Below, piece by piece: positions 182-59,400 of a DNA stretch of 64,000 bases. Origin of the DNA: Sphaerolaimus hirsutus (lineage: Eukaryota; Nematoda; Chromadorea; Monhysterida; Sphaerolaimidae). The translations under genes and the position numbers were made by a program. The notes beneath the pieces are model-generated. The model was not told where the DNA came from and ran no database searches. It worked only from the letters and a program-made list of their open reading frames with translations. Location of the stretch: NCBI GenBank assembly GCA_964036195.1, contig OZ038460.1:11783504-11847503 (forward strand), read 5' to 3'. Each line of letters begins with the position of its first letter. The stretch's first letter is position 1.

Positions 182-3100
182 AAAAGCAGCAATGGCTCGG
201 GCATCTCTTCACTAATCCGCAGAAAGCCCGGCTGCTCGTCGCGCCCGATTGCCAGATGTTGTTGATCTTGGCACATGCGCGCTGCACGAAATACAGTCAT
301 CATACAAAAACACCACCGTCATCCAGTCATTGCAAACAACACACAAACAACGAACCCCACAAATCCAGCTGGTGCCTATAATAAGTGAGATAGTGTCGCT
401 TGTTTTCCACGTCGGCGTAGCTGCACTTGTTGCGGCCGTCGCCGAACACGTCGGCAGCCAGTTCTTGCAGCGAGTAGCAAGTGTTATCGGCCGCCCGGCA
501 CACGTACACCTGCGAAATAGACGCCGCGTCACGCTGACAGGATAGATTTCGATCGATCTGTGTGATCGATCACTGTAGGAGGTCGGGTAAATACACGCGG
601 GGTGCGGGTAAATTAATCGGTAAAATGGGAAACGATGGAGGGGTAATGGAGGAATAATTGAACTGAAAAAAGACAATGACAAAGGAAGTACATGTGCACG
701 TGTGGAACCGAAAAAAACCGAGTGCATAATCATAAACGGGCGAGGGCAAAGTAGAGGCAACTGAAGCAAGCATATGGCACCCGAAAGTTGTGTCCAAACC
801 TCCATGCCCGGAGGGTCATCCCCATCGACCAAATCTATTTGAATGCTTGGGCCATGCACCACCAATGTTTGCCTAGTGACACTGGGGCCATCGGTGCAGT
901 CACCACTACCAGAATGCGCACTGCCAGTTGCTCGTTTGCTTGTGAGCTGTTTGGCACTTTTCCAACGGCGCCACAATTTCGCCGGCCATTCCCACGCACC
1001 GTTCGTGGCCCAAGAATTCACGTTGAGTTTTACCTGACATTTGAGAGACTCGATGTACGGCTGCTTGTAGTTATAACAGAACGTGATGATGCATTAATTG
1101 AAATGAAAATGGATTTGCATGCGCCGGGGACACACGACAATGAACATTGTGTTACATGCTCAAACAACAGGGCTCACCCGTACTGGGACAAATCTAAATT
1201 GTACAAGTTTAGGTTACTAGCTTATGGATTAAGTACGATCGAACTGAAAAAATCATCCAGACAAAAATGGTAGTCCATAAGCGATAAAACTCACGACAGT
1301 GTTTTTTCTCGCAGCCGCCCCATCCAAACTAGCGGGCGTTTCATGCAACATGGTTCGCTTGCCGCACAGGCGCTTCTTCGACGGCAGCGGCGACATGTTG
1401 TCGCCCACGACCGTGTACGCCTTGACGAGTCTACCTCTGGCGGCGGCGCTGGGCGCGTCGGCGGCGCCGCAGCGACAGCAAGTGTTCGCGCACACGGGGC
1501 ACGCGTCCGCAGCGCTCGACGTGGACAACTTGCCGCAGCCGGTCACGCTGTGGTAGTGGTGCGTGTGCTGCGGCGCCGTCTGCTCGCGCGTTATGAACAT
1601 TTATGCCCATTGTGTTTTAAGAGTGCACTGGTTCAAAAAGCGATTGCAAAGCAGCTCAACGTTCGTTGTTAGTTCGAGGACAAGCTAGTACATTTGCACG
1701 TGTAATAACGGCTATGCAGAAATGTAACCGTATCCAGAGCGAGCAGCATTTTTTCTATGTATGCTACATGAACAATGACTTCGGCAGGACCTTAATCTGC
1801 ATTGCAAATCGAATACTAACACACACATACTTTCGTAAATTTAGGTCCGTTTCACCGATGTGTGCATGATATGTACCAGCTTGCGTATGCACCTACTGCT
1901 ATATTTAGCTACTTGTGACTATGACTTATTACATAACCATCAGTGTGACATCCCACCGCCTCCTTGGTTTTTGTCGCCAGAAAAAACAACGACCGCCACT
2001 CAAATACGCGATTATTGGGTTGGAAATACATATTTTTATATGGATATTCTATATTTTTCGACTTTCATCAAAAATAGACAAAAATATGTCGACAAACAAA
2101 CTATGTCACTATTATTCTTTAACTTTTGAAATCAATACTCTAAACGACATATAAATACATCCAACCATAGTCTTAAATCTACATAAAAAGGAACACAAAA
2201 AAGTTATAAATACCTTGCGGCCATCCAGATCCATGCGGCCGCGCGGACTGTCAACTAGCAGCTGCGTCTCCAGAAAGATATCCCGATGTTTCTCAGACAG
2301 CACCACTTTGCAAATGCGCTCCTGAATTTTCTTGCTCGCCTCGCCGCGGCACACGCACATGTCGCCCAGGTAAATGAAGAAACTGCAACGGTGTCACACC
2401 GCATCTTGCGTAGCATTTTTTTAGATGCTTGTCGCTTTTTGCTTTGTGCGTAGAGTGGGCTAACAGACAATCGCACAGAACAGTCAGTTACAATGAGACG
2501 TGTAAAATTAAACGATACTGTACCTCTCTGCAAGTTGTAGCGCTCTGCAAGTGCGCTCGTACTGTAAGTATGCACCCCAGCTAGAATTGTAAAAATGCAT
2601 CATTTTTAGAAAGTATAATTAAATATAATCTCAGAAAATCTGTCAAAATGAAAATATTATACAATTAAATCAGTATGATAAAACAGTGGAAATAAAAGAA
2701 AATATTTATGAGTCATTTTCTTCTCATACAGGAAAAACCTGGAGAAAATAAATAAATATAAGATTTTTAAATATTGTATTTTCTAAGATCATATTTTCTG
2801 ATACTGAAAAATATATAAATTTCCTGGATTTTTTCAATGCTAACCCTCGGCCTGGTATGCTTCATATAGAATTAATTATATTTTCATTTTGAGATATTTT
2901 CTCTTTATGGTAATTAGATTTTTTCAAAATCACACATTTTTTCAATGCTGGCATGCATACTCGCAGGGCGCGCAAACTTTCAGTGCAGTCATAATTAGCT
3001 GCAGGCCGCTACTTCTGGCAGAGCGAGTTTACTTGCAGAGAGAGAGAGTTCCGACCAAATCAAACAACGCCACCAAAATTTACCGGCCGTCGCCCTTCTC

Positions 3101-6100
3101 CTTGACTAGCTGCACAAACCGCTCAATGTGCTTTACATCTACATTTTTCTCCAACAACGTGGGATTATTGTGCAAAATGTCCGTCATAGTATCCTCTGCC
3201 ATCACGCCATAGCCAATCTGCTCCTGTATAATGCCGAAATTCTCGGCAATGATGTCCTGATTCTTTCGATAGCCGGCCTGGGGGCAGTCTCAAACTCTGT
3301 ATTGAGCCGTGTAAAATGTCAAGTGTCGTGCAAAGTGTCAAAAGTCACGTAAAATGCCCTGCAAAATGGCAACTCGGTTGCCATTTTGCAGGGCAGCCGG
3401 CAGATTACGTGACATTAGACACTTCGCAAGACACATGACATTTCACAGGGCACTTTACAGGGTCTGGGACTGGCACCTGGGCGACGCGCAGCAGCGTGTA
3501 GGCGAGTCGGAAAGTGAGGCAGAAGCGCTCGTTGCCGGGCAGCATCAAGTCGGCGGGGTCCTTGAAGATGGGCGCCTCGGTGCGCAGCTCGGCGCCGCTC
3601 ATCGGGTCGAAGCCGACGCGCCGCTCGAACGGCGCGCTCAGCAGTCGGATCACCTGCAGTTTACCATGCTATGACCACCTTTCAGGGATTTAGTTGGGGT
3701 GGGGGTTGGAGGGGGGGTTGCAACCCCTGCGGGGGTTCAAATCTACAAAACCCCTGCGACCTTTCGGGGTTCTACAGTGCGACTTCATCGTCAGTTCAGT
3801 GTGGTGTATATGTTTTTATATTTCGTTTTTGAATGATTTCGATACTGATGAACAGGAATTTTCACGCATTGATTGTATGAAATGGGATTTTTTAAGATTA
3901 AATTAAACGAAAAATGACTACCCCCTTGGACAACAAAGATCTAAAGAAAAAACAACCACACAGCGGGACTTATTCAAGAATTTACATTGTTTCAATGAAA
4001 ATGACAACCTGCGCTAGTACACCCTGTTCTCTGAGTAGTTTCTGCCTGTTCCTGTTGCCAGCTTTGAGCTTGATTCGCAGCGCGTCCGTCGTGCTGCCGC
4101 CTTTGCGCTCTGCCGTGAAAAATATGCAGTCGGCCAGAAGATTGTTTATAGATCTGAGCGTTTAAAGAATAAAGATCCACCAATATATGACCGCATATGC
4201 TCGAAATTTGGCCGGGGGTGATTGTTTCATAATGTAAATTTCGAGTATTTTGAGGGGGTATTTCGAGGAGATACGGTATTTAATTCGCGTACGTGTATTT
4301 ATATACATATATACCGTATTATCTCGAAATACCCCCATGGGGGTTTATTATTTCGCCAGCAAAATTTGAGGGGGGGTTAATTCGAGGGGGGTTTATTCGA
4401 GGGGGGGGGGTTTATTTCGTCAGAAATTTTCATAAGAATCGTAGTAAATAGTAGGCATTTACATACCCAAACCAGGTAATAAATGTGTCCAAACAGGATA
4501 TATTTGGACATAAAAACGTAGATAGATACACAAAATGAGGCTGCAATGCAAATGTACAGTAATATACATCATGTACATTGCACACATGACGTATTTATTA
4601 TGTACATGACGTATTTCGAGGGGGGGGGTTTATTATTTCACCAGCCCATTTGGAGGGCGGGATGATTCGAGGTAATACGGTACGTGTATTCACATCCATA
4701 TACAGTGCTTTTTGGCGCTAGCGCCAGCGCCAATGGCGCCATGGCGTGGCCCCTACGAATGGCGACAGCGCCATGGAACATTCAGTCACTCTGTAGGCTA
4801 AATTTGAGGGGGTACTCAGCCCCCCCCCCGTTCGCCGGGCTCCGTAAACAAGCAGCCCCCGCTCAAAAATCCTGGATACTTACTTCCCTGGTCAAAAGTG
4901 ATATCGTTCGAACCCAAAATGGTCAGTCAAACAACTCTCGACCAACCCTCTCTCGTGGTAAATGGCGTGCGCCTTGTCGATCTTCTGTATCTTGTCGACG
5001 AAGCCGCGCAGCTTGGCCTGCGCATCGTTGGCGAAGTCCAGGTCGCGCACCTCGTCCGGCTGCACGGGCAGCACGGCGAACACGTCCCGGTCTTGCTTCG
5101 CCTCCGTGCACGACAGCTGCGCGCATTGACTGGAGGTTCGCGTGTGAACGAGAATCGTCAAACTACTCATTGGCGCACCGTAAAAATACGCATCTAGTGG
5201 AATTACGCTGTTTACTGGAATGAACGTCCTAATAGTTGATGGGGATTCAAATTATATCATTCTAGTAAACTCAAATGCGTTCAATGCTGAATTATAAATC
5301 TTCGACATTCTGGTCGAAAACTGTGTGTGGGATCACATTACGAACCTCATACCAGCCGGGCTCCCGGAACGCCTTGGAATGATAGCATACTTTGTCATCT
5401 TTGTGCACCCAAAAGTACGGCACCCCACTGAGAGCGTCGGTGGCGGGCACGAAACGCAAACGCGCGTGCGACTTGTGCGGAATCGGCGAGTCCGGTCTGT
5501 AAAATACATGAGGCGTCTAATTCTAAAAGTCGACAAGTCCACCAAATGCGATTTTGAGTAAAGCGCATTTTAAGTTTCAGACCCAATTCCAGGCCCGTGG
5601 TGTGCGTCTAATTTGGCTCTCTCATGTTTTCCATTAAGTTCCATATGTTGACAATAAAGCGTCAAATTTTCAGCCCCTAATCTCAACCTATATGTGAAAA
5701 ATGGGGTGTCCATAAAATTTCATTTGGTCAGAGCAAAGTTGTTTCGGGGAGGGAAATGTCGACTTGTCGACTTCTTGCACTCGAGAACATTTTTGTTCCC
5801 AGGGAAGATTGGGATGCCTTATGGGAATATTATGGACTTGTCGCCTTTTAGAAATCGGTGTCCACAGTGGACTTATCACATTTCTTGCGTTTTTTTTCCC
5901 ATAAAAAAGGATGAGGATGATGGACTTGTCGACTTTTAGCCCAAACTTTTTGCATTTTCCCAAAAAAAAATGTCAAATTTGGCACTTTGCCATGGCTAGG
6001 GCCCATTCCGCACCAAAGCCCATTCCGCATGTAGACCCATTATAGACACATTATGCCTGCAGGAGAAAGAAAGGGGGGTGGGTAACACCACCCCAAACCG

Positions 6101-9100: not shown

Positions 9101-10086
9101 AGCAGGCGCTTGAACTCGACGTCATTCTGTTCCCTCTCTTTGTCCGCGGCGATCTGAGACGGGATCAGATGCGATAATGGCGGCCCGCACACTGGTTGAC
9201 ACTCGTGTGTCAACTGGTCTGTGTCAACTCAGATTTCGGCTTCACGTGGCGCAGAGCGATCTCCTAATGCACATGATGCAATGGTGAAAAATAAATATTA
9301 CGGCAAGTGCATTGGAAGATCGTACTGCGACACGTGATACCGAAATATGAGTTGACACAGATCATTTGACACAGATCAGTTGACACACGTGTGTGAACTA
9401 GTGTGTGGGCCGCCAATAGAACACAACACGTTGAAAATTACTACACATCAGCATGACTACGGTTCTCAGACGGATATATCGCCATTGCTTTGTCAAAACG
9501 CTTCAAATACCAAAAAGCGCGAAAATCACGGCCAAAACAGGTCGCACCTCCATTCTCCTTCTCATGTTCTCATCAACGTGGATGCTGGCGGCGCGGCCCG
9601 GCGCCGTGGCCGACTGCGCGCACTCGTTCCAATACGCCTTCTGGGCCGTGTACCGATTGGTCGGACACACGCGGAATAAACAATCTGCGCGTGCAAAATG
9701 GCGTACCACTCCCAGACCCAGACCATGTAAAAGACTCTATAAAATGTCATGTGTCGACCCTGTAATGTGTCATGTGTACCCAGATCTTATTGTATCATAT
9801 CACATTTTTTTTTGAGTTCCCACAGGTCGCCGAGACACCCTAAAAAAGTGCAAAAGCGCGAACCCCTGAATCTAGTAGGCGGATTGGTGGGCGAGAAGCC
9901 CCTGGCGGCGGACACGATGCACTTGTCGTCGACCATGCCGACGCTCTGCAGGAAGCCCTGGCCCTCGTCGTGCTTGTGCGCGTACAGGGAGACCACGTCG
10001 CCGACGTGCAGCGCGTGGTGGCTGCCCGAGCCGGCCGAGCCGGACGCGCCCGCCGTGATCGACAGCGACGTGCCGAAGTCGCGCAT
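182..10086 (-). CDS. ITPR: Inositol 1,4,5-trisphosphate receptor, N-terminal ~970 residues (3' part off window)
   Basis: IP3-gated Ca2+ release channel of the ER. Exons 5' to 3': 10086-9864, 9684-9548, 9153-9067, 8993-8857, 8458-8355, 8246-8176, 8050-7967, 7896-7744, 7294-7190, 6850-6582, 5496-5346, 5116-4947, 4153-4009, 3653-3477, 3277-3084, 2382-2214, 1579-1295, 509-356, 281-182; all junction phases agree and no frame is broken. The ATG at 10086 starts the suppressor domain ([29 protein letters not shown] across the first junction). MIR repeats follow ([48 protein letters not shown]), then the IP3-binding core with [10 protein letters not shown] and YRKNQ, the basic and Tyr residues known to hold IP3, then RIH/ARM repeats ending at LDLWARMC. 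Two oddities: a 95-residue Cys-containing exon (1579-1295) with no match in the vertebrate protein, and RMTAR where vertebrates have RTTGR in the ligand loop. The donor of the 8050-7967 exon (GTCGGT) is weak. Ryanodine receptor is excluded by the suppressor-domain start and spacing. Confidence 0.95.
3278..3476 (-). mobile_element. Introner-like element forming a complete ITPR intron
   Basis: The 199-bp intron between the exons ending at 3477 and starting at 3277 is one inverted-repeat element from splice site to splice site. On the minus strand it begins GTGCCAGTCCCAGACCCTG and ends GAGACTGCCCCCAG. The inner repeats (TGTAAAGTG, AATGTCA, TGTC) are complementary between the halves, and a perfect short hairpin (CCCTGCAAAATGGCA and its complement) lies in the middle. 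The exons on both sides join in phase with conserved protein sequence (VAQ then AGYRKNQ). Related copies are at 15191-15389, 28355-28524, 44898-45059 and 58054-58499. Confidence 0.85.
4195..4682. mobile_element. MITE copies of the TACCGTATTTCCTCGAAATA family
   Basis: A complete copy runs from about 4312 (TACCGTATTATCTCGAAA) to 4682 (TTCGAGGTAATACGGTA). Just left of it, 4195-4278 is a truncated copy ending GTATTTCGAGGAGATACGGT. The arms carry long G-runs alternating with TTTATTATTTCG. No coding capacity. It lies in an ITPR intron. Confidence 0.7.
4684..4892. mobile_element. Truncated hAT-type MITE (GGCGCC-rich, ends AATCCTGGATAC..CCCTG)
   Basis: The GGCGC/GCGCC palindromic stretch (4713-4780) is followed by GGGGGTACTCAGCCCCCC, GTTCGCCGGGCTCCGTAAAC, and a terminus of the form AAAAATCCTGGATAC...CCCTG. 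These match the right half of the full copy at 10598-10973. The left half is missing. It ends a few tens of bases before the ITPR exon at 4947. Confidence 0.6.
5507..6513. mobile_element. ~1 kb inverted-repeat element filling most of an ITPR intron
   Basis: The left terminus carries GAGGCGTCTAATTCTAAAAG and the right terminus carries its near-complement TTTTAGAATTGGACGCCTC. Together they span most of the intron 5497-6581. The interior repeats GGACTTGTCGAC...TTAGAAATCGGTGT and is partly duplicated in inverted orientation. No transposase is visible. A shortened relative lies in AHR intron 3 (31985-32287). In both genes a terminus sits immediately upstream of the 3' splice site. Confidence 0.65.
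6892..7161. mobile_element. PIF/Harbinger-related MITE
   Basis: It starts GGGCCCCCGCACACTAGTTG and ends GTAGTGTGTGTGGGCCC. Subterminal TGTCAACT/AGTTGACA motifs match the autonomous-type element at 12885-16893. About 270 bp with no coding capacity. It lies in an ITPR intron about 30 bp upstream (in gene direction) of the exon starting at 7294. Confidence 0.75.
7402..7662. repeat. GGGATCGGGATT-type degenerate tandem repeat
   Basis: About 260 bp of diverged GGGATCGGGATT units, flanked by GGTTCAAACAGGATTGA and CGTTTGAACCC. The complementary motif (CCCGATCCCGA) recurs at 10165-10257, so this is a dispersed repeat and not a unique microsatellite. ORFs across it have Arg/Gly/Ser/Asp repeat composition and are not genes. 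Confidence 0.7.
8093..8172. mobile_element. Fragment of the CGAAATACCCC MITE family
   Basis: Carries GGGGGTTTATTTTTTCAT and GAGGGGGTATTTCGAT, the G-rich arm of that family. It lies next to the ITPR exon 8176-8246 and supplies sequence downstream of its 5' splice site. Only one arm is present. Confidence 0.5.
9179..9414. mobile_element. PIF/Harbinger MITE with AAT target duplication
   Basis: Termini GGCGGCCCGCACACTGGTTG and ACTAGTGTGTGGGCCGCC, each flanked by AAT. The interior is palindromic, with GTTGACAC/GTGTCAAC repeated near both ends and GGCTTCACGTG/CACGTG further in. 236 bp. Close relatives are at 32831-33022 and 34808-35015. Confidence 0.85.
9700..9816 (-). mobile_element. Degenerate introner-family arm in ITPR intron 1
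   Basis: On the minus strand, ITPR intron 1 ends with ACATGGTCTGGGTCTGGGAG preceded by TTACAGGGTC and ATGACATTTTA, the 3' arm pattern of the introner family. The plus-strand part CCAGATCTTATTGTATCA also matches the interior of the copy at 58054-58499. The 5' arm is not recognisable, so this is a decayed or partial copy. Confidence 0.45.
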
Positions 10087-14865: not shown

Positions 14866-16016
14866 GCAGCGGCACGAGATATTTCAACTACAAGGGATTT
14901 TATTCTGTGATTCTGTTCATTTCTGCGAGTGCTGATTTGCGCGTGCAGTATGTGGACGTTGGGGCGCCTGGCAGTCAGTCCGATTCGGGTGTGCTGCTCA
15001 CGTCGGATTTCGGACAAGACCTGATGTTAGTTTCTGCAACTGTCTAGCTTCAGTTGACATTTGAAAACGTACTTTACTTAAATGTTATTGCAGAAATGGC
15101 AGAATGGTCATGCCGAAAAAGTGCCTACTACCTGGCACCGACCCAGCCGATAACACAAACTACATCCCAAGCTGTTTCATCGGTGACCAGGTGTCAGTCC
15201 CACGCCATGTAAAGTGTAAAGTAAAGTATGAAATGTTAAGTGAAATGTAAAATCAAACAAATCAATCAAATAAAAGGAAAAAGTCAATATTTTTCTGTAT
15301 TTTGCATAAGAATTTACAGTTTCGTTTACATTCAACTTGACATTTTACATTTTACTTTACACTTTACATGGCTTGGAACTGCCCCCCATGCATTCGCAAT
15401 GTCAAAATGGTGTCTCGTGCCATATGTGATTCAAAACAACCCGGCAAACAGGCACTTTAACACCAGGTGACTTATAACAATTACCTGTAATTTATGAATA
15501 AATTAATATTATATTGTTTTACAGACTTTCGCGCGCTAGGAGAACGGTCGAGTGCACTTTTGGAATGCTCGCGGCTCGCTGGAGGATTCTGCTTGGCACC
15601 ATCACCATGGAGCCATCCCGCATCAGCCGAATGGTGATGGTGCTGTGCTCGTTGCATAACTGGCTGCAAGTGACGCGCGGATCGACGATTGCAGACCACT
15701 TCAACGCGCGGGGGGAGGAAATCGAACCGCTGCACGGCGTACCTGATCATCCAAGACTTCGCGACCGAACTGTGAGACTGCTAATTGTCTTTGTTTTCCT
15801 AATTTGCATATACTTAAAAATGTGGTTATTAATAATGTCAACTGCTCCCTGCAGCTAAATTGGCGCGGTGCTATCGACCAACTTATCCAAATTCTGCCGG
15901 TTGATCAGCGATCGTCAGAAGCCATTCGTGAGGCGCGAGCGATGCGTGAAAAAATTAAAGAGTGGATGAAGGAAGGTGAAGGCAGACTGCCGTGGTTGAA
16001 CTGGCAAGATGCCTGA
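14866..16016 (+). pseudogene. PIF/Harbinger DDE transposase, C-terminal part
   Basis: Exons 14866-15025, 15094-15190, 15390-15466, 15525-15771 and 15855-16016 join in frame. Recognisable DDE_Tnp_4 features are GFYSVILFISASADLRVQYV, DVGAPGSQSDSG (second catalytic Asp region), FIGDQ/AFAMS (family GDxAFxL), RLSRARRTVECTFG with the catalytic Glu and AARWRIL, and a C-terminal coiled region ending WLNWQDA. The first exon starts mid-codon, and I could not find the N-terminal exon with the first catalytic Asp or the partner Myb-like gene. The junction 15190/15390 has CAT where CAG is expected at the 3' splice site. The copy is therefore probably inactive, though an unseen upstream exon is possible. 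Confidence 0.8.
15191..15389 (+). mobile_element. Introner-like element inside the Harbinger transposase gene
   Basis: Begins GTGTCAGTCCCACGCCATG and ends CATGGCTTGGAACTGCCCCC followed by CAT. The arms are complementary (TGTAAAGTGTAAAGTAAAG against CTTTACACTTTACA). Its edges coincide with a clean in-frame join of conserved transposase sequence (GDQ then AFAMS). Same family and same length as 3278-3476. Confidence 0.75.
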
Positions 16017-17889
16017 GTTGACGATACACATTCAAAACTTATGTCAAATGATACATTTCTAGGTGAAATGTATCAGTTGACACATTCTTGTACGTTGTCA
16101 GCGTCAACACAGGCATTTTTTTTTCCTAGTTGGATATTTAGGTGTTAAAAATCGAAAACGGTTCCGTTTTTTGAAATTTCTTCTTTTACTTGCTTCAATA
16201 ATTTTAGTATATCAGATTTCACATGCAGTGCGGACATAACTTGCCAGGAAATTTTTTTAAAATTATTGAAGTTTGAAACTTTGAAAAATTCATATCTTTC
16301 TTTTACGTCATGTGATTCTTTCAAAAAAAATACTGCTGTGTTCGCGTTTCTTTCGCCTTTCATTTGGTTATGTTGGCATTATGATGTGATTACGTGTTGC
16401 GCGATCAAAAATAAATTTCTGTTTGAAGAAAAAGATTTTTTATTCTTTCAAAAAAATTTATTACGAATGATAATTAGTACAGAAAAATTCACAGACATTT
16501 ATAGTACATGAAACAACTATCTAATAAACAAGCATTCACACATGTAAACAATAAAAAATTTTTGAATATGGAACATGCAAATAATTTTTAATTTGGTTAT
16601 GCTTCACACAATATATGATAATTAGGTGTCAAAAAATCAGATTAATTATGGTCTATCACATAACACTCTTTAAATCACACAAACTGCATCGTAGAAAGCA
16701 GGGTCAACTCGTTTCTGAGAATGGATTTTTCCAGTTGACTTTTTCAATGAAATACATGAGCTAAATGCCAAAAATATGGGTTAACGCGTATGCTCTTTTA
16801 AAAAAGGCAAGTGGTGAGTGATAATGTCAACTGAAACACTAGTTGACTCTGAGTTGACTCTGAAATGCGATGTCAACTAGCGTGTGGAGGCCCAATATAA
16901 GGCCGCGTGGGCCGTGTAAACGGCCCACACATTTTTTTATACAAAAATGCACTGATCACCTTGCTCCGAACATTTCTTTTTATATGCTTATATTCTGTTT
17001 TTCAAGGCCAGAATTTGGCCATAATACAGAACAGAGTCCTGGCTTAGTGCCAAATGCCATTTCGACGGTTTCTTTCCAGGCAGAAATAAGATTAGGATAT
17101 TTTCAATTTTCACTGTTTTGTATTGCGATCACGATCAGCTGTGATTGTGATCATTTTATCTCCTAATGTGAGATCTATTAACACAGAAAATGCTTCCACC
17201 AGAAAGAGAAATCTTAAGCGGTTTTTTAAAAACCTACACCGCTTAAATTCACCTACCCAAACATTAGAACTTGAGGGGCGAAATTTATTAAACTTAGTAC
17301 ATTTCGTCCGGGGAAGGAAATTAGTAGTAAGTAAAATTTAACAATGTTTAATAAATTTCGCCCCTCAAATTCTAATGTTTGGGTAGGTGAATTTAAGCGG
17401 TGTAGGTTTTAAAAAAACCGCTTAAGATTTCTCTTTCTGGTGGAAGCATTTTCTGTGTTAATAGATCTCACGGTAGGAGATAAAATGATCACAATCACAG
17501 CTGATCGTGATCGCAATACAAAACAGTGAAAATTGAAAATATCCTAATCTTATTTCTGCCTGGAAAGAAACCGTTGAAATGGCATTTGGCACTAAGCCAG
17601 GACTCAGTTCTGTATTATGGCCAAATTCTGGCCTTGAAAAACAGAATATAAGCATATAAAAAGAAACGTTCGGAGCAAGGTGATCAGTGCATTTTTGTAT
17701 AAAAAAATGCGTGGGCTGTTTACACGGCCAACGCGGCCTTATATTGGGGGGCATACCATACATCATTTAGACGACTCTTTGGGCTATCTTTTGTATGGGG
17801 TGAATTTTCCCAAAAAGTTTAGGGGGGGCTGTGAATGAATCGTTTTTCAAAAATTCGTAAGCGTTCGGACCTAGGTAAACGGGGGTTTA

Positions 17890-25774: not shown

Positions 25775-28700
25775 ATGTACGCAACGAAGCGACGTCAGCG
25801 CAACTTCAAAAGGTGAGTATTTTACTTCGCGCCGCCGGCCGGCCCTGCATTACAATGTGTCGGTGATGGTTGTGGCGGCACGCACCATCGCATGATTATG
25901 CGCACACGCCATTAGCTGCGTGCAATGGCGTACAACACGCACAAGATCGCGTGGCGCCAACATTGGTAGGCAGCGGAACTCTATCACGCCACACGTTCCG
26001 TGACTCGCGTGCATTGTGCTCGATATCGGCCGCCGTCGGCCCTGCTCGTCGCCGGCCGCCGCAGCGAGCGCCCACCAAGGCGCGGGCCACCTTCGAGTCA
26101 GGAAGCACGCGCGTCACCGGCGCGGCACGAAAATGCGCCGCGCGGCCAGCGCACCTGTGCGCCAATCAATCGGCCCGTACTTGGGGCCAACAAGGGGCGG
26201 GCGCACGCCACGTGTGCGTGCCAGCCGCAATCGGGCGCCGGCGCCGTGGCCGACCCGCGCAGCTCGCCCGCCGCAATCGACACGCGGCGTCGCGTGGACC
26301 GCCGCCCGTCAAAAATGAACTCACCGGACTATACCGCGCTAGCTGCGCCGGCGGTCATTTATACATCAGCTTGCTCGGCGGTCCGCCTTCTACTTCATTG
26401 TACAGTAACAAGTCAAGTAGCCCTCGATTTTTTACAATAATTTAAAATCGTCTGTGCTCTTTTATAATTTTACATGCCGCCAAGTTCGTTATGCGGCGTG
26501 TAATGCCAACCGCACACCAGTTTACCAACATGAAATGCTTGGAAACATTAAACCATTTTGGCGAACTGTTTTGACAAAACAGTATGAAACACTGTACAGA
26601 GTTGTACGGTGTTGCGTACTGTTTTGTGCAAACAGTTGATCAACATGGTCGAGCATTTCGTGTTGGTAAAGTAGTCTGTGTAGGCTAAAATGCATCATGT
26701 TTCACGGTAAAAATACGCAGAGCGCGCGGCGACGATGCTACGACAAAGGTGGCGACGGGCGTGGGGCCGGGCGTGCTGCCGCCCAGCTGCGCCATGGCCA
26801 CCAGTCTGGTGCCGACGGGCGTGCTCGGCGCGCAGACTACCGCAGGCGCCGGCCAGCCCCACGGATCGAACCCGTCGAAACGGCACCGCGAACGGCTCAA
26901 CGGCGAGCTGGAGAACGTGGCCGTGTTGCTGCCGTACGACGCGAATGTGATCGGCCGACTGGACAAGCTCAGCGTGCTCAGGCTCGCCGTCAGCTACTTG
27001 CAGGCGAAAACGCACTTTCATGGTTGGTTCTGTTCTTTTGGTTGGCAATACATTTTTTACGCCACGTCAATTTAAAATAACATTCAAAAATACATTATTG
27101 GAACAGTTTGGACAGATGCATTTATTTATCACTCATACATATTTCATGAACTTGCAACAATTGCTAATTTCATGACACTTCATTGTTGATTACCCTATCT
27201 CGACTCCATTAAAAATGGCTTCCAATTAGCGTGCGTTACGATTAATTACACATCTGTATTACTGCCCAATAGCCCAATTCCCTCTCCGTCAGCATGCTTG
27301 CGCGTATCATTTTAAATTGATAAATTATGCTCGTAATGTCACAATTTTACAACAGCTTCTGACCCCGCTGTTCGTTCAATATTACGCCCGACGTCTACAG
27401 CGGTCTTTATTCATTCCTGAAAGCAGAAACGTGGCACAGCCCAGTCGGCATATAAAATTCAGCCCGAAGCATCAGTGCCAACCGTGGTCACAAACGCGTG
27501 GACGAAATTGAAAGTGCACGCGCGTTTGCGGCAAAAGCGCCGCCGACTCTAGCTGGAGCGTAGAGGAGCGGCCGAATTGTCACAAGCGCATCTGCATTGG
27601 CGCGAGGCGGCGCCCGCCCGCTTTGATCACGGCCGGAACGTTATCGCTTCGTAAAGTCAGCTGTCGCATCCCGACCATGAGCTACTGTAATCATGGATGC
27701 CATGATCGCATGAATATTGCAACAGCAGCAGCGAGAGATGAAAGCGTGCCTTCACATGACGCTGGATGATGGACATTTTCTTAGAATCTGGCCGCGGCAC
27801 ACCTGTTCAGTTCGATCAACGGTGGCACACGCATTTCGCTGATCATTCGTTTATTTGCATGCGACGTCCGCGGCGGCCGCATGCGCCAATATTGGCGCGA
27901 GTAATTGGACGACCAAAGTTCAAGTAGCTTGGCGCCAGCGCCGGATACAATTTCACAATCGCTAATGGCTGGTGGACGGGCGGACGACGCAACGGCACCC
28001 CCATCCCAGTATGAAAGTAGCTCCTCGATTTGAAGTGTGCGCCGCAGCGGCGAGCGCGGCGACGCCGCCAATCTCGAAGAAGCGTGTCACGCGACGCCGC
28101 GGCTGAGGCTCCAGCCAGCCGCCAGATGCCTCGACATATTTACTTACTGTAGCAGTGCTGCGGTTGAGGTGGGGGCAATAAACTCTGTCACACAAAGCAA
28201 CTAATCAATATGAGAAATGAATACTTCACTCTGGGCCAGTGTAGATAAATGTGACAAGCGTTTGTGGCTTATTACAAACACGGGAATATCGCATACTATG
28301 CTGGAACTATGTATTACATTATTGTTTGGCTGGTTACATAAATATTAACACCAGGTGCAAATACCAGACCATGTAAAGTGTAAAGCAAAGTGTCAATTGT
28401 CATGACAAATGTAAAGTAAAGGGTCAATTGTCAATAAAAGTTTAGTAATCATTTTATATTGACATTTTGAATGACGTTTAACACTTTACCTTACACTTTA
28501 CAGGGTCTCTGGGACTGCTCCCAGATATGTTACAGTAAGCATGAAGTGTATGCAAACAGTTTCTTATAAAAAACGTTTCCAATTATTGTAAATATTTCTT
28601 CATTTTTATAACATAAACAATAGCTGTGAAACTGTTTTTTTACAAGATTATAAAACATATTTCCAACCACATAAAAATGTTACCTGCACTGCACAGCAGG

Positions 28701-34700: not shown

Positions 34701-36725
34701 AGAGGTTGAAGGCAGCACGCTGCTGGAGAAGAGGGCTGCACTAGGAGCGCGCTTGCTCAGGTGTGATGCTATGCAAACTGATTTGACACAGTTTTCAAGA
34801 CAGGTTTGGCGGTCCACACACTACTTGACACATGTGTGTCAACTCAGATTTTGGCTTCACGTGTCGCAGAGCGATCTACCAATGCATTTGCCGTGATATT
34901 TATTTTCCAACATTGCCGCATGTGCATTCGGAGATCGCTCTGGCACACTTAATGCCGAAATCTGAGTTGACACGGACCAGTTGACACACATGTGGCAACT
35001 AGCGTGCGGGTCGGCAAAGGCAAAGGTTAAACGCACAAAAATCAACCATTCAAAACCATTCGCAGCTTCGACGACTCGCTGCTGCAATCGCCCAAGCTGC
35101 TGCAGTCGACGGCCGCGCTGACGAACGTGACCAGCGGCGGCGCGGTGCCCAACGCGCCCGTGGCCACGCCCAAGCCGTCCAGCTCCGGCACCAGCCAACC
35201 GGCCACCGGTGGCAAGAAAAAGGCGAAAACCGAAGAGAAGGAAGACAAGGCTACTACTCAGCAAAGAAGCGGCTTGTCGCAAGGGAACCGAGACGCGGCA
35301 CAATGTAGCTCGGAAGCTCGAAGCGGGCCAACTGCACAGAGTGACCACGGGGACGGCGGCGCTCTGTCGGCGCTGACGACGCTCACGGCGGGCATGCTGC
35401 CGAGCATGTCCAGCTACATCCCCAGACACGTGCCCAACCCGATCTACCAGACCAACTTGAACGTGCACGTGAATGAGGTGCCGCCGACGGCGCTGCAACC
35501 GGCCGCCGCCGTCAAGTGCGACCCAATGGAACTGGCGTACAGGTTGGCTTGAGGGTCTTTTTTACACGCGGCGCGGAGATTCGGGGCGTAAACCAGGCTG
35601 CGATTAACGCAGGGGCGCCTACGAGTACGCGCCGAGCGGCATGTTGCCCAGCGCCGACTGCGCCCTGCCCCAGCTCAGCGCGGGACCGTTCGCCGACGCA
35701 GAAACAGCATATTATGTAAGTCAAACTTGGCGGCGCCTTATCAAAGCGTAAATATTTATCATGGGAAGTGATTGGTGAATTAATAAAATCAAAACTATGG
35801 CTACAGCACTATTGAGGAAGTTAGCTAGTTTCCATTGTATCAAAGTTTCAGCTGGTTAAATAATCAGTTTGTATTTGATGCGCACATGACTGCACACACT
35901 GAAAAATTATTTATCGGTTCAAACACTGCGTACAAATCAACAATTTTCTTCAAAGTACCTCCAATCAATTAATGACAAGAAAACTTCTAGGAACATTGGG
36001 CTTTTCTCAAAAATCTTCTAGGGTGAATGTCCCAAACTGAAATCTCATTTGTTATTCTCAGATATGTCAAAATTTTGGCTTAGCAGGTTGTCGAATAGAA
36101 TACGTCGGTTGTCGAAAGGAATAAAATACACAACTCAAACTTGAGTAAAATGCACATGCACGCGCAACGCGATCAACTCGCAGCCGAGCAAAACGGACCT
36201 GTCCGCGTGCGCGCCCAGCGACGACGCGGCGTCGTTGGCGGCGCGAATCTACGGCGGGGCGGCCGCCGCCGCGCTTTACCAGTACGCCCCCGGGGCAGCT
36301 TACGGCACGCCAAACAGCAGAGTGCACGCGGCGCAGTTACAACCTTACGGCTACGGCGCCGCTGTGAGTTTACATCCTACCGCTTTAGGGGAGAAAGCTG
36401 CATATTGCGAATGGAGTAAAGTCACTAATGTGAGACAAAGTTTCAAATTCTCCGGGAAAAAAGGTTTACAAGGTAACAGAAATATTAGTTATTGCATGAC
36501 AGGGCAATTGAGATTTTTACACGCCAGTGTAGTTGTACCGAGAGTTGGAAACTTATCTGAAATTTAATACTTGCCACAAGAAAAGACGAAACTGTGCATG
36601 GATCGTCGAAAATAACATGCGATATTGCCACACAGACTTTCGGCGATCAATCAGATATGTACTCATCGGCGGCAGCGGTGAATTTCTCATTCTCGGAGGT
36701 GACAAACACATTGTTGGGGCAATGA
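25775..36725 (+). CDS. AHR: Aryl hydrocarbon receptor (bHLH-PAS), complete
   Basis: Ligand/partner-dependent transcription factor that pairs with ARNT on xenobiotic-response-type DNA sites. Exons: 25775-25812, 26721-27022, 31535-31848, 32294-32420, 32481-32554, 33519-33837, 34556-34760, 35066-35542, 35613-35715, 36184-36363, 36636-36725; 2229 nt, 742 aa, all phases consistent. The 38-nt first coding exon gives [12 protein letters not shown], like the YATKRR start of insect spineless. The bHLH follows ([38 protein letters not shown]), then PAS-A ([57 protein letters not shown]) and PAS-B ([40 protein letters not shown]). A low-complexity C-terminal region rich in Ala, Ser and Thr ends [12 protein letters not shown]. 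About 50 Ala/Gln-rich residues separate bHLH from PAS-A. Intron 2 is 4.5 kb. The last two exons rest on splice phase and composition only. Confidence 0.92.
28355..28524 (+). mobile_element. Introner-family element in AHR intron 2
   Basis: Starts GTGCAAATACCAGACCATG after ACACCAG and ends TTTACAGGGTCTCTGGGACT then GCTCCCAG. The arms pair through TGTAAAGTGTAAAGCAAAG and CACTTTACCTTACACTTTAC. 170 bp, same strand sense as the host gene. It lies inside a larger intron, so here it need not be spliced on its own. Confidence 0.72.
29037..29509. mobile_element. MITE, TACCGTATTTCCTCGAAATA family, full length
   Basis: TACCGTATTTCCTCGAAATA at the left and GTATTTCGAGGAAATACGGT at the right, perfect over about 19 bp. 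C-run tracts lie within the left arm. 473 bp in AHR intron 2. Confidence 0.85.
31985..32287 (+). mobile_element. Short relative of the 5507-6513 element next to an AHR acceptor
   Basis: TTATGGACTTGTCGACTATT, TTAGAAATCGGTGTTCACAG and a right end GACTTTTAGAATTGGACGCC match the right two-thirds of the ITPR-intron element. The right terminus is followed by TTAAATTTCAG, the 3' splice site of the exon at 32294. Confidence 0.65.
32831..33022. mobile_element. PIF/Harbinger MITE with AAT duplication, AHR intron
   Basis: GGCAGCCCACACATTACC at the left, AACCAGTGTGCGGGCCGCC at the right, AAT on both sides. Interior GTTGACGCTCGTGTGTCAAC and GGCTTCACGTG as in 9179-9414. 192 bp. Confidence 0.8.
34808..35015. 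mobile_element. PIF/Harbinger MITE, AHR intron
   Basis: GGCGGTCCACACACTACTTG at the left, CAACTAGCGTGCGGGTCGGC at the right; interior TTGGCTTCACGTGTCGCAGA as in 9179-9414. No clean target duplication. It ends 50 bp before the exon at 35066. Confidence 0.75.
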
Positions 36726-43000: not shown

Positions 43001-45243
43001 TGTTCACACAAATATGAGATTGGCCATCTCAAAAATCATGTTATCACAAAAATTGTAAATTCAGTAGTAAATAGGCAAGATAACAGCAGTTCCAATTTCG
43101 CTGTAGCATATCTCACATTTGTGTGAACAGATTTATGCGTGAAAGCACTCATTTCAAAGCCTGAACATTCCTCTTACAGTCAGATATGTTGCCTTTACAA
43201 ACTGTTTGAACATGAGGGCCATATGTCTGGAGAAACAGCCATTGATGAAATCAACATCAGTACTTAGGCATCTCCAGTACATTTACAAAACATATGCAGC
43301 CATGAAAAAGTCATACCACAGCATGTGGATGACATATTCATCAGCCAAGGCATTTTCAGCGACTGAAAAGCAATGGAAATGGCTAAAATAGCTATTTTTA
43401 TCATCTGCCGCCATGTTTCAGAAAATAGAATGAAAACAGTCATCAAAATGCATTTCAAGTTGGGCCTTGACACTCAGAGCTGGCTTGATGCCAAACTTCT
43501 TCAAATCTGGCATTTGTTGCAGAATGCAACCTTGGAAATCAGGATTTAAGACCAAAAAACACTAGGGTGCCAACCATGGTGATCAGCTTTAAATGAATAA
43601 AAGAATTTATCTGGCCCATGAAATGCCCTAGAGAAGAGATAATCAGTTGTGCCCTATATGCACTTGTAGGGCTTGAATTGCCCTACAATGGGATACCCCA
43701 CTTGGCCAAATACAATCCTGTATAGTGAAGTTATGAATTGTTTTATGAAAATATCTCAATGGTGCCAACCATGGTGAACGGGGGTGTAGATAGCTAATTT
43801 GGGGGGTTACGTTATGGGACATATCCTGTCGAATATACCAGAGTCTTTTTTTTATAAAAATGATTTGAATTTAGAAATAATGCGACTATACAGAAAAATA
43901 TCCTCCCTGTCGAAAATTATGAAATATAGAACGCATACCTGCACTTTGGCAAAGACGTAGTTCTGTAAATCGCTGCGCACTTTTTGACCACCGCCTTTAC
44001 CAGCGTTGATTTTCTTGATATGATTCATGATAGAACTGAACAGGTACTTTCTGAGAAAGAAAAATACGCTTAAGGGGTCAGATAGAAGCTTGAATAGTAA
44101 AAGTAAAACGTGTAAAAAAAAGCAACCGGAGAAATTTATCTGGGCACTTGATCAATTCGAAGAACAGCTGCAGCACCGACACGGGCGTAAGGACACCATG
44201 ATTTCTGTCAGATGGAAAAAAGTTCATAAATGTGAGCACGCAGCATACCACATAAACATGCATACCGTATTTCCTCAACATACCCCCTCAAAATGGGCAC
44301 TATGAATTTATTAGCCACCCCCCCCCCACGAAATACCCCCCACCTCGTTTGGCCTCCTCAAAATTCTCACTCTGAAACAATCACCCCCGGGGGGGTATTT
44401 CGAGGAAATACGGTAATATTCATCCAAAAAAATCCTCACCTAAACACGACGACCATCTGACACAAGGTGAGCCTGACCTTGGCACCAAGGAGTTCCCCGG
44501 TGCCGGCGCTCTGGTCGCGCAGCAGGCGCACCAACGACTCGGCCAGATCAGAGCACTCGGCTGGGTAAAAACGGGCGCACGGCGCCACCGACTGCAGCGC
44601 CGTCGACAACTGGAAAGTAAGGGCGCGTTTGAGTAGTGTATTTTTATTACGTGTTGACGAATTTGAAAGAGAAATGCAGTGGGTTGGTAATTAAGTTTGA
44701 ATGCTGCCATATTTAGGGTTGGAAAAAACGCTTTTTTAACGCCATGTTTTTTTTATAAATAAAACGTTTAAAAAAACATCGGCCAACCCTAGCCACCTTG
44801 GGTATGGGAGGAAGCCCACCGCCATAAAAAGACAACTTTTTCAACTAGGACATATTGGAGGGTCAAAATTCGGGACAACCCTGGGTGGGGTAACCGCCTG
44901 GGGGTAGTCCTAGACCCTGTAAAGTGTCAAATGTCACATAAAATGCCAATCAAAACAGAAAAATTCATTCAATCTTTACAGTTATCATGACAATTGACAC
45001 GTTGCATGATATTTTACATGACACATTACTTTACACTTTTCAGGGCCTGGGATTGGCACCTGTGGCGCGTCATTCCCTGCTGTGTATACAAAACATACTG
45101 ACCTGCTCCTGCAACTGGGCATCGCCGGCATCCGGGTGCAGTTGCAAAAGTGTCAATGCACTTTGTGCGTGCTGCAGTTTCCGCACAAAATCTTCACGGT
45201 GCGGTGCCGTTAAGCGCTTTTTGACCATCTGATACGGGGGCAT
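37064..45243 (-). CDS. SDAD1: SDA1 homologue, 60S ribosome biogenesis factor, complete
   Basis: Nucleolar protein needed for 60S subunit maturation and export (known for yeast Sda1). Exons 5' to 3': 45243-45103, 44609-44440, 44204-44127, 44050-43939, 42066-41935, 41291-41075, 40578-40355, 39611-39394, 39338-39224, 38674-38551, 38483-38439, 38209-38112, 38050-37948, 37708-37617, 37246-37064; 2052 nt, 683 aa, against about 687 in human. Conserved blocks in order: LQLFFELIKCPDKFLR, AYRKQLWNDAKTANAI, LYDAQDFAERLFRSLE, GTHKLLILGFYSYVQRYI, LLYAAQAAHELVPPDIVQAL, CPFAIDDDMLRDLAEYK, NVTSAARSLIQLYR, a Glu/Ser-rich acidic stretch and the Lys/Arg-rich tail KHFMMVRAKHRGKNRQRSYG. The start at 45243 (MPPYQMVKKR) follows a splice-acceptor-like TTTCTTAG at about 45277-45284, so a spliced leader or non-coding exon is likely. 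Confidence 0.95.
37486..37590. repeat. Three-unit tandem repeat TTACCGTACCGTACCGTTTA
   Basis: Three copies, about 40 bp apart, of ACCGTACCGTACCGTTTACT/C within the last SDA1 intron, separated by similar A-rich linkers. Confidence 0.6.
40609..41032. mobile_element. MITE, TACCGTATTTCC family, SDA1 intron
   Basis: Degenerate left end TACCGTAATTAATCGAAATA, right end GTATTTCGAGGAAATACGG. Interior GCAGAACACACGTTAAAAC and CCATCTAGGTGCATACT match the copy at 24094-24722. Confidence 0.75.
41342..41767. mobile_element. hAT-type MITE, reverse orientation, SDA1 intron
   Basis: CATCCAGGATTTTTGAGCGG then CTGTTTGTTTACAGAGTTCG at the left; GGGGGGGCTGCAGCCCCC and CCTGGATACGGCCCTG at the right. Same family as 10598-10973 in opposite orientation. 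The left CAGGG tip is eroded. Confidence 0.75.
42361..43769. mobile_element. 1.4 kb fold-back palindrome in an SDA1 intron
   Basis: GTTGGCACCATTAAGATATT at the left edge is complementary to AATATCTCAATGGTGCCAAC at the right. The two arms of roughly 680 bp stay near-complementary (for example GATTATCTCTTCTCTAGGGC and its complement) up to a loop near 43045-43090. The 133-codon and shorter frames on opposite strands are mirror images of the same sequence, not independent genes. It fills most of the intron 42067-43938. Confidence 0.85.
44263..44415. mobile_element. Short MITE, TACCGTATTTCCTC family
   Basis: TACCGTATTTCCTCAACATA to GTATTTCGAGGAAATACGGT with C-run and G-run arms and little interior. 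At 153 bp it is the smallest complete copy. It ends 24 bp from the SDA1 exon at 44440. Confidence 0.8.
44714..44791. mobile_element. 78-bp hAT MITE (TAGGGTTGG termini)
   Basis: TAGGGTTGGAAAAAACGC to CGGCCAACCCTA; flanks GCCATATT/GCCACCTT match 6 of 8. An internally deleted relative of 19750-20421. Confidence 0.7.
44898..45059 (-). mobile_element. Introner-family element in SDA1 intron 1
   Basis: On the minus strand it runs from GTGCCAATCCCAGGCCCTG, preceded by CGCCACAG, to TTTACAGGGTCTAGGACTAC then CCCCAG. Arms pair through AAAGTGTAAAGTAATGTGTC and complements. 162 bp, same orientation as SDA1, inside the intron 44610-45102. Confidence 0.75.
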
Positions 45244-56472: not shown

Positions 56473-59400
56473 ATGCATCAAAATGGCGGCGCGTCAAGAT
56501 TCATGCAACGACGGCAGTCGGCGAGCAGCCTTTATCCCACGTCGGCGCCGGGCGGCGGGTTGGCGCCGTCGAGCACCGCGCCCGTAGTGGCGGGCGAGCT
56601 GAGCGACCTGTTGAAGGCGGCCGCCGCGGCGCACGCGTTCTACGCACGAGACGTAGACCAGCCGGTCGAGACGGCTCACGCTGGCCGACAGGTGCTCGGC
56701 TATGATTTTGAACGACGCGATTTTATAACGATGGCAAACTCCAAAGAATACGAAAAGTTTTTCGATTTTTTTTTGAGTTTTCACATTTTCATTCCACCGC
56801 AAGAAAAACATTTAAAAATCGATTTCTGTCCGGAAAAAAATCGGAAATTCTAAAAGTATTCTCAATTTTTGGTTGTAAATGCGTACGAAATGCAAAAACA
56901 CTATATAAAACTTCAATTCACAAAAACCCAGTTATGGCGTCACGAGCATACATAAATCTATTTGTATTTACTTGGTCCGGCTGAAAAGTCCCCGGGCAGT
57001 GCTCGCCATTCGCGCTAGGGGTAAGCTACGGTCATAAAATTTTGACAGGTTAAGATATCAGGTGTTTTGAGTTTTTACCTAAAATTTCACCCCTCTAGCT
57101 CCACCCACTGCGGAACTGTGGGGGTTACAATTTCGGTCATTTTGTACTGATGTACACATGGTGCTCCAGCTCAATGCTGCTTTAAGTTGTGATCATGAAA
57201 CGTTGGCTAGTGTAAGCCACCAGTGTTGGCAATGTGCCAGCACTAACCAACATTAGCTATGATATCATAAGCCTAGTCAATATTCTCATTACTGACCCTA
57301 CTCACACTTCCAAATTCATTATTCTGCCTCTGCTTCTCAAAATAGCCCCCATGGAGTCTATGCACCTCTGCCACCTGACTACCACCTTCTCCGTGATCTT
57401 CTTAAAAAATGTTGGTTCAGCAGAAAGGCACCAGCTCTAGCACCAGCACATTAAAATCACTGCAATACAACATGATCTGAGATGATCACCAAAAACATCC
57501 ATCACAGTTCACACGTTTGTTGCACATCACCCTGATCTGCATATAATTTTTACCTTAACAGCAATGATGTTGATGAAAGTGTTGAATACCATCAGCACAT
57601 TGCCAACACTGGTGGCTTACACTAGCCAAAGTTTCATGATCACAACTTAAAGCAGCATTGAGCTAGAGCACCATGTGTACATCAGTACAAAATGATCGAA
57701 ATTGTAACCCCCACAGTTCCGCAGTGGGTGGAGCTAGAGGGGTAAAATTTTAGGTGAAAACTCGAAACACCTTATATCTTACCTGTCAAAATTTTATGAC
57801 CGTAGCTTACCCCTAACGCGAATGGCGAGCACTGCCCGGGAACTTTTCAGCCGGACTTAGTATTAATAACCTGTTCTAAATACATACAGGCCTATAGTGC
57901 GGCAACGCCGCGGTCGGGCGTGAGTAGCCCGGCGGCGGGCCGCAAGCCGCCCTGGCTGATCAAGCGCCTGTACGACTGGTCGAGCCGGGCAAAGAGCCGC
58001 TCGCTGGCGGTTCGCGTGCACTCGGCCCTGGCCAGGCAAAACGGCGCCACCAGGTGCCAGTCCCAGACCCTGTAAAACACTGTAAAGTGTAAAAGACCCT
58101 GTAAAGTGTAAAATACCCTGTAAAGTGCAAAATACCCTGTCAAGTCTAAAATACCCTGTAAAATGTCATGTGTCGTATAAAAAATCTTGTAAAATGTCAT
58201 GTGTCGTGTAAAATGCCCTGTACAATGTCATGCGTCTGTAAAAGACCCTGTAAAGTGTTATATGTATCCAAATCTTTCTGTATCGTATACTAGTTTTATG
58301 TTTTTGTATCCAAATCTTATGTCCAAAAGTAAGATTTGAATAAAAACATAAGATTAGAATATGATAATGATAAGATAAGAAAAAATTTGATTTGGATGCA
58401 CATGACAGTTTACAGGGTTTTTTTTACATGTCATTTGACACTTTACAGGGTCTTTTACCCTTTTTCACGTACTTTTACATGCTCTGGGACTACCCGCAGA
58501 CTCATCGACGACACCGCCCCGGCTCGCTGGGTCGACATGAACTGGGTCCAAATGTTCCCCAACTTTGCCGGCAAGAGAGAGGCGGAACAGAAGCAAATCA
58601 AAGCGCTGTGGGAACTGTTCCACACGGAGCTGAGATACTTGCTCGGGCATTTGTTGGTGTTGAAAAATGTGAGTGCGAAGAAATACCTTTCTTGTTTCAA
58701 CATTTTTAAAAACAATAAAAATGCAGGTGTTTAAAGAGCCACTGAAAGAATGCCAGGCCGGTGGATTGCTGCAGAGAGTCGATGCAGACGTTTTGTTCTG
58801 CAATTTGGATGATCTCTGCAAGGTATAAAAAACAGCGTCACTTTTTGTAACCGGTAATAAATACGGTTCATGCCAAAAACAATGCTTATTCAGGTGAGCT
58901 ACGAGTTTTGTACACTATGCAATGAGCTTATAATTGGCTATGTATCAAATGGGAGTCCCTTACCTGTGAGCATAGCAGAAAAAGTTCTACACGGCACAAT
59001 TTGCACACCATCAGCACTGAATGCCTACCAAACATATTGCCTAAATTACAAAGCCACCCTGGAGCACTTGGACTATGTCAGACAAAGGGATGAGCGTTTT
59101 GCAGAGTTTGAAAAGGTAACTGTTTTTGAAATATTTTTAAAAAGCGACGCAGAAGCGGCAAACTATGCCGGCGTTAATGATGGTAAAGGCACCGGGAAAT
59201 ATGGCACTGCACCGCACCGACATCGATGCCGTCCTGGAGAAAGAGCACCTGGCACCGGAAAAAAATTGCACCGCACTGCATCGGCACCGGTGCGATTCTG
59301 AAAAAATGGCACCGGCACCGAGGGGTACCGGCAGGTTGCCGGTGCTAGCACCGAAAGGCACCCTCAAAAACGCCACCTCTCCGCACCGCGCCGACACCGG

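Follow-up and report, generated by a model that had tools for sequence, protein, structure and literature searches.

A nearly perfect palindromic transposable element that very probably makes introns in the nematode Sphaerolaimus hirsutus

The window (the whole 64,000-nucleotide stretch of Sphaerolaimus hirsutus DNA analysed here) carries part of an IP3-receptor (ITPR) gene on its minus strand. Within this gene, a 199-bp intron consists of a single 196-bp foldback element followed by the triplet CAG, one of the two copies of a target-site duplication of 3 bp. The features at this site are as follows.

3084..3277, minus strand: ITPR exon on the downstream side of the intron, with predicted donor GTAAAT
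3278..3476, minus strand: whole ITPR intron (element plus right target-site duplication copy), placed from the sequence and ITPR similarity
3278..3280, minus strand: right target-site duplication copy, CAG, the last three intron bases, predicted to act as the 3' splice AG
3281..3476, minus strand: foldback element, GTGCCAGTC...GACTGCCCC, 196 bp, 12.2% from the family consensus
3477..3479, minus strand: left target-site duplication copy, CAG, final codon of the upstream ITPR exon, located by the two-ended scan
3477..3653, minus strand: ITPR exon on the upstream side of the intron, with predicted acceptor CTGCAG

When the two exons are joined, the product aligns without gaps with residues 552-626 of IP3 receptor type 1 (E 2.5e-21), which bears out the original prediction that removing the 199-bp intron restores conserved receptor sequence in phase. 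Without splicing, the frame runs into a stop inside the element. Terminal inverted repeats had also been placed exactly at the splice sites. The foldback does fill the intron, but the element proper occupies 3281-3476 and the last three intron bases are the duplicated CAG. The two halves of the intron match at 148 of 195 aligned positions, and the intron strand folds as RNA at -114.1 kcal/mol, against a mean of -49.2 in 200 shuffles (z -17).

A search of the genome (348 Mb in 762 contigs) with the ITPR element, as the original prediction had proposed, revealed a dispersed family. Of 3020 first-look candidates, 40 were scored. The query is itself among the 40, and the other matches show 82-87% identity to it when the better orientation is taken. 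We fetched 41 loci (designated by L-numbers) and dropped two that repeated the window or another locus, leaving 39 loci that amount, with the window, to 298.7 kb. Likeness to the query determined which 40 genome places were used; the only copies free of this selection are the ones in the window and in the flanks. A two-ended scan of the 298.7 kb identified 60 copies, a count that retains near-duplicate pairs (L002/L003, L013/L041 and two within L027) as well as two spurious-looking copies (L018 at 5453 and L020 at 5621).

These 60 copies start with GTGCCAGTC, end with GACTGCCCC and have CWG flanks in a CCWGG target; the CWG-flanked end type of the family is GGGGCAGTC. The left/right triplets are CAG/CAG in 24 copies, CTG/CTG in 8, CTG/CAG in 7, CAG/CTG in 1 and other combinations in 20. 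The same triplet occurs on both sides in 33 copies, compared with a mean of 22.4 and a maximum of 32 in 2000 permutations. Since the next outward bases are predominantly C at -4 (38/60) and G at +4 (36/60), the target can be written as CCWGG with duplication of CWG.

A 189-bp consensus, built from 50 copies of 170-200 bp with L018 left out, matches its own reverse complement at 184 of its 189 positions. If the centre is set aside, positions 2 and 4 are the only places at which its arms differ, and it is there that one end carries GT. The termini are GTGCC at this end and CCCC before the duplicated CWG at the other. In 53 of the 60 copies, one end has T as its second base and the other has G. 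Arm complementarity averages 90% across the 32 copies of 189 bp. Of 154 changes seen in one arm, 54 are also found in the other (3.3 expected), although subfamily structure may explain part of this. The arms therefore appear to have stayed, or to have been copied, alike while the GT/GG difference persists. With GT at one end and a duplicated CAG, the element would bring the 5' splice site and the CAG would supply the 3' AG.

Longer copies of 340-443 bp (58054-58496 in the window, L018:4297-4656 and L022:2594-2933) have the same GT/GG end difference. A further subfamily (L004:432-627, L019:85-270 and L016:5308-5502) has ends GTGGCAGTC then CAAGCC, with GT at a single end.

The window includes five further copies, mostly diverged.

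58054..58499, plus strand: second whole-intron copy (element 58054-58496 plus the right CAG), in a RhoGEF-type gene; reads ..ALARQNGAT R|LIDDTAPARW..
44901..45059, minus strand: copy with a CAG/CAG duplication, by eye within an intron of a minus-strand gene, with a predicted GT donor at about 45104
15191..15385, plus strand: diverged copy, 38% from the consensus; a DDE_Tnp_4 fragment lies about 120 bp downstream of it
28355..28521, plus strand: copy flanked on both sides by CAG, with no visible coding context; outside the 60
9703..9826, plus strand: degenerate one-ended copy, by eye antisense in an ITPR intron; outside the 60

For the copy at 58054-58499, RhoGEF similarity lies downstream of the site only (one match below the cut-off and another above it at 59417-59692). 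Close to the copy at 44901..45059, the segment 44439-44690 gave no Pfam match. Two SDA1_HEAT exons (39384-39635 and 40316-40654) lie on the same minus strand as this copy, as do one or more exons of a PNP_UDP_1 phosphorylase (46087-46584), MTAP-like by eye. The copy at 15191..15385 interrupts, by eye, the same transposase gene as the DDE_Tnp_4 fragment; the joined upstream piece gave no Pfam match. The family is not restricted to whole introns: by eye, some copies are embedded in longer introns, one adjoins a transposase fragment, and others are in DNA where no coding context was seen. The window also contains what appears to be a second foldback family, with arms of GTTGACAC/CACACTAGT-type repeats (9175-9418, 34805-35018 and 61025-61878), and two long inverted repeats with short spacers (42360-43770 and 16891-17748; arms of 661 nt at 92% and 408 nt at 97%).

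Protein similarity spans the rejoined site at nine loci: the ITPR site and the eight given below.

L026: NEK7; crosses the site without gaps, E about 1e-25
L040: kinase; crosses the site, gapless there against MARK4
L032: Patched-type; Pfam match extends 3 residues past the site and a PDB match to a relative 10 past it, gapless
L021: EF-hand; crosses by matched range, and a homologue lines up through the site by eye
L035: Peptidase M13; crosses by matched range only
L016: RA domain; crosses by matched range only, E 6e-5
L007: intermediate filament; crosses by matched range only
L029: ZP-N; crosses by matched range only

The Pfam test covered 30 of the 60 copies, with one frame each, picked as coding-looking and including all eight CTG/CTG copies. 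Ten joined frames reached the curated cut-off and in seven of these the match range spans the rejoined site; the other 20, although picked as likely coding, gave no match above the cut-off. PDB searches with the RhoGEF-type gene, L035 and L016 found nothing. L026 has TTG as its left triplet; the change is silent and adjoins a conserved NEK7 stretch. Several candidates were not retained as site-crossing: cadherin (L009), whose best stretch ends before the site; a Cys-loop receptor (L014), whose match begins at it; PAX (L024), whose Pfam range above the cut-off does not span it; EB (L012), which is below the cut-off; and 7tm_1 (L022), which spans the site but below the cut-off. Three copies lie within about 4.4 kb (L009:4871-9235) in apparently one cadherin-type gene, with a Pfam match beside one of them and the others placed by eye.

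A different type of comparison is provided by L030, a gene made of repeated peptide units: one unit carries the copy, and four other units (4-7 mismatches per 30 bases) are uninterrupted. It gives no answer as to whether the original triplet was CTG or CAG. The units (..KRHSGYGNKYSSWL..) lie between basic cleavage sites and the gene resembles a neuropeptide precursor.

At all sites shown to be coding, the GT end is the upstream one with respect to the coding strand. We compared orientations with a codon score, trained on 13 frames chosen by eye and applied to both sides of the join. A score of at least 4 was reached by 14 of 60 sense joins and no antisense join (9/47 and 0/47 without the training copies). 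The gap narrows at lower thresholds (21 versus 5 at 2 or above; 26 versus 13 at 0 or above). Among CCAGG sites outside elements 24 of 372 reached a score of 4, against 17 of the 60 elements joined in sense and none of the 60 joined in antisense; this comparison was scored with no leave-one-out. Open-frame length separates the strands poorly (at least 25 amino acids on both sides in 45/60 sense and 33/60 antisense joins), and none of ten antisense frames reached the Pfam cut-off.

The right edge of the element is CAG in 36 and CTG in 12 of the 60 copies, where equal numbers would be expected (p 0.0007); the two triplets are equally common in the fetched loci. At the left edge the numbers are 31 and 18 (p 0.085). 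This right-edge excess is consistent with selection for AG, and the CTG/CAG to CAG/CTG ratio (7 versus 1, p 0.07; the seven include one near-duplicate pair) points in this direction too. Four of the nine coding loci (L016, L026, L032 and L035) nevertheless have CTG at the right and no AG at the edge, so GT-TG splicing would be needed there. Within the element, the AG closest to this edge ends 19 nt short of it, and its use would shift the frame. In three of the eight CTG/CTG copies (L011, L033 and L036) an AG lies 9 nt before the right edge and would keep the frame. GT-TG splice sites are reported for the Micromonas introner classes IE-B and IE-D (PMC3879977). Human TG acceptors are reported to occur solely in the vicinity of an AG, the stated distance limit being 28, and human AG-to-TG mutants are reported as never spliced at TG; the latter speaks against GT-TG in the right-CTG copies. 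GT-TG splicing of these copies is possible but unproven, the alternative being that they are broken alleles.

Taken together, these features make it very probable that the element is an introner: a non-autonomous, nearly perfect palindromic MITE that would make spliceosomal introns on landing in coding exons. The family shares sequence up to both predicted splice edges at many loci, its removal restores conserved coding sequence at the nine loci, and it shows signs of mobility (duplication, inverted repeats and dispersal). The introner interpretation put forward at the outset is thus supported, in that a dispersed repeat with inverted-repeat ends and a duplication makes up entire introns at several coding sites independent of one another. 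In the proposed mechanism, the transposase would duplicate CAG at a CCAGG target. The left CAG would then be the exon end and the first two bases of the element the 5' splice site (CAG|GT), while the right CAG, after CCCC, would provide the 3' splice AG. With a built-in splice start and a splice end gained by copying of the target, an insertion could leave the RNA as a ready-made intron. Excision of the element with one duplication copy would restore the reading frame in any phase, so that insertions into ITPR, NEK7, intermediate-filament, EF-hand and other genes may have survived as new introns. Splicing at the predicted sites is inferred from the sequence. The donor CAG|GTGCCA is weak past GTG relative to the splice consensus, and an alternative donor, CCT|GTAAA, lies in frame 18 nt inside the element.

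Three other explanations were considered. It is very unlikely that this is an ordinary MITE whose coding copies are recent or broken alleles and remain unspliced. The right-CTG copies, with no AG at the edge, and the copies outside coding sequence would fit such an explanation, but the nine coding copies have diverged by 3.2-12.2% from the consensus, too far to look fresh, and the frames flanking them are nevertheless intact. Both the one-sided orientation of the coding copies and the predominance of CAG over CTG at the right edge also argue against it. We consider it highly improbable that the element landed in already existing introns and happens to fill them. Since the copy at 44901-45059 seems to lie within a longer intron, such insertions may occur; at the whole-intron sites, however, there is no remnant of an older intron, the duplicated triplet directly abuts both exons and the joined frames align with homologues without gaps, and at L030 a single unit of the repeated peptide gene carries the copy.

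Spread via RNA by reverse splicing, a proposal made for fungal introners, would account for the fact that all coding copies shown are in the splicing orientation. It is difficult to reconcile with the target-site duplication, the CCWGG target, the palindromic ends and the copies with no coding context, and we regard it as extremely unlikely compared with movement of the introner as a DNA transposon.

With respect to the source of mobility, the duplication together with the GGG-type end points to a NuwaI-like transposase, in the PIF/Harbinger (PHIS) superfamily, as the mobilising enzyme; we call the element NuwaI-like rather than NuwaI. hAT elements have ends in CAG and an 8-bp duplication; a hAT identity was discarded, the longest duplication seen being CWG. 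Classical PIF/Harbinger was set aside since an AT-rich duplication would be expected and the element has CWG. The fetched DNA yielded a single transposase motif, located in the window at about 15528, and it was not seen bounded by element ends. Viral contigs gave no exact match to the 23-base end pattern.

The NuwaI group (PMC4482050) has CWG duplications and is restricted to animals. Its ends usually start with GGG; here the acceptor end is GGGG and the donor end GTGC. An autonomous NuwaI partner would be expected to encode a Myb/SANT protein alongside its DDE transposase. NuwaI elements bear a transposase and have ends of 12-61 bp, with no intron link in the portion of the description used; the present element is a non-coding palindrome with one GTG end. 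Titles and abstract beginnings in the open-access literature gave no link between NuwaI or CWG elements and introners. The survey of Gozashti et al. 2022 (PMC9860276) gives introners in two animal groups only, naming copepods. Its introners are likewise dispersed similar introns, with similarity nearly to both splice edges and DNA-transposon signs. The Chrysochromulina family in this survey also brings a 5' splice site of its own and acquires the 3' site where it inserts, but it has 4-bp duplications and no inverted repeats, in contrast to the 3-bp CWG, whole-element palindrome and animal host of the Sphaerolaimus element. Amoebophrya introner elements (PMC7789003) form hairpin introns with 3-5 nt direct repeats at exon edges; they differ in their protist host, their varied repeats and their definition among non-canonical introns. 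Micromonas IE-B and IE-D (PMC3879977) have the GT-TG sites that right-CTG copies would need here, but belong to a green alga and are very variable in length (certain IE-B members reach 6494 nt).

We also put forward, tentatively and with the balance somewhat against it, a more specific proposal: that one palindromic animal transposon family gives rise to two kinds of intron, GT-AG at CAG targets and GT-TG at CTG targets. TG would be used because an AG lies 19 nt upstream in the element and the hairpin draws the two ends close to each other. A transposase with a CCWGG target, which contains the proto-splice site CAG|G, would have been suited to this in advance, and a single-base change at one end, from GGG to GTG, would have been the final step.

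The origin of new introns is a long-open question. In this family a possible design can be read directly: a proto-splice-like target, mirror-image ends save for the bases that make GT, and insertions in conserved genes. It may provide many candidate introns in one animal for tests of splice-site recruitment, orientation and acceptor choice.
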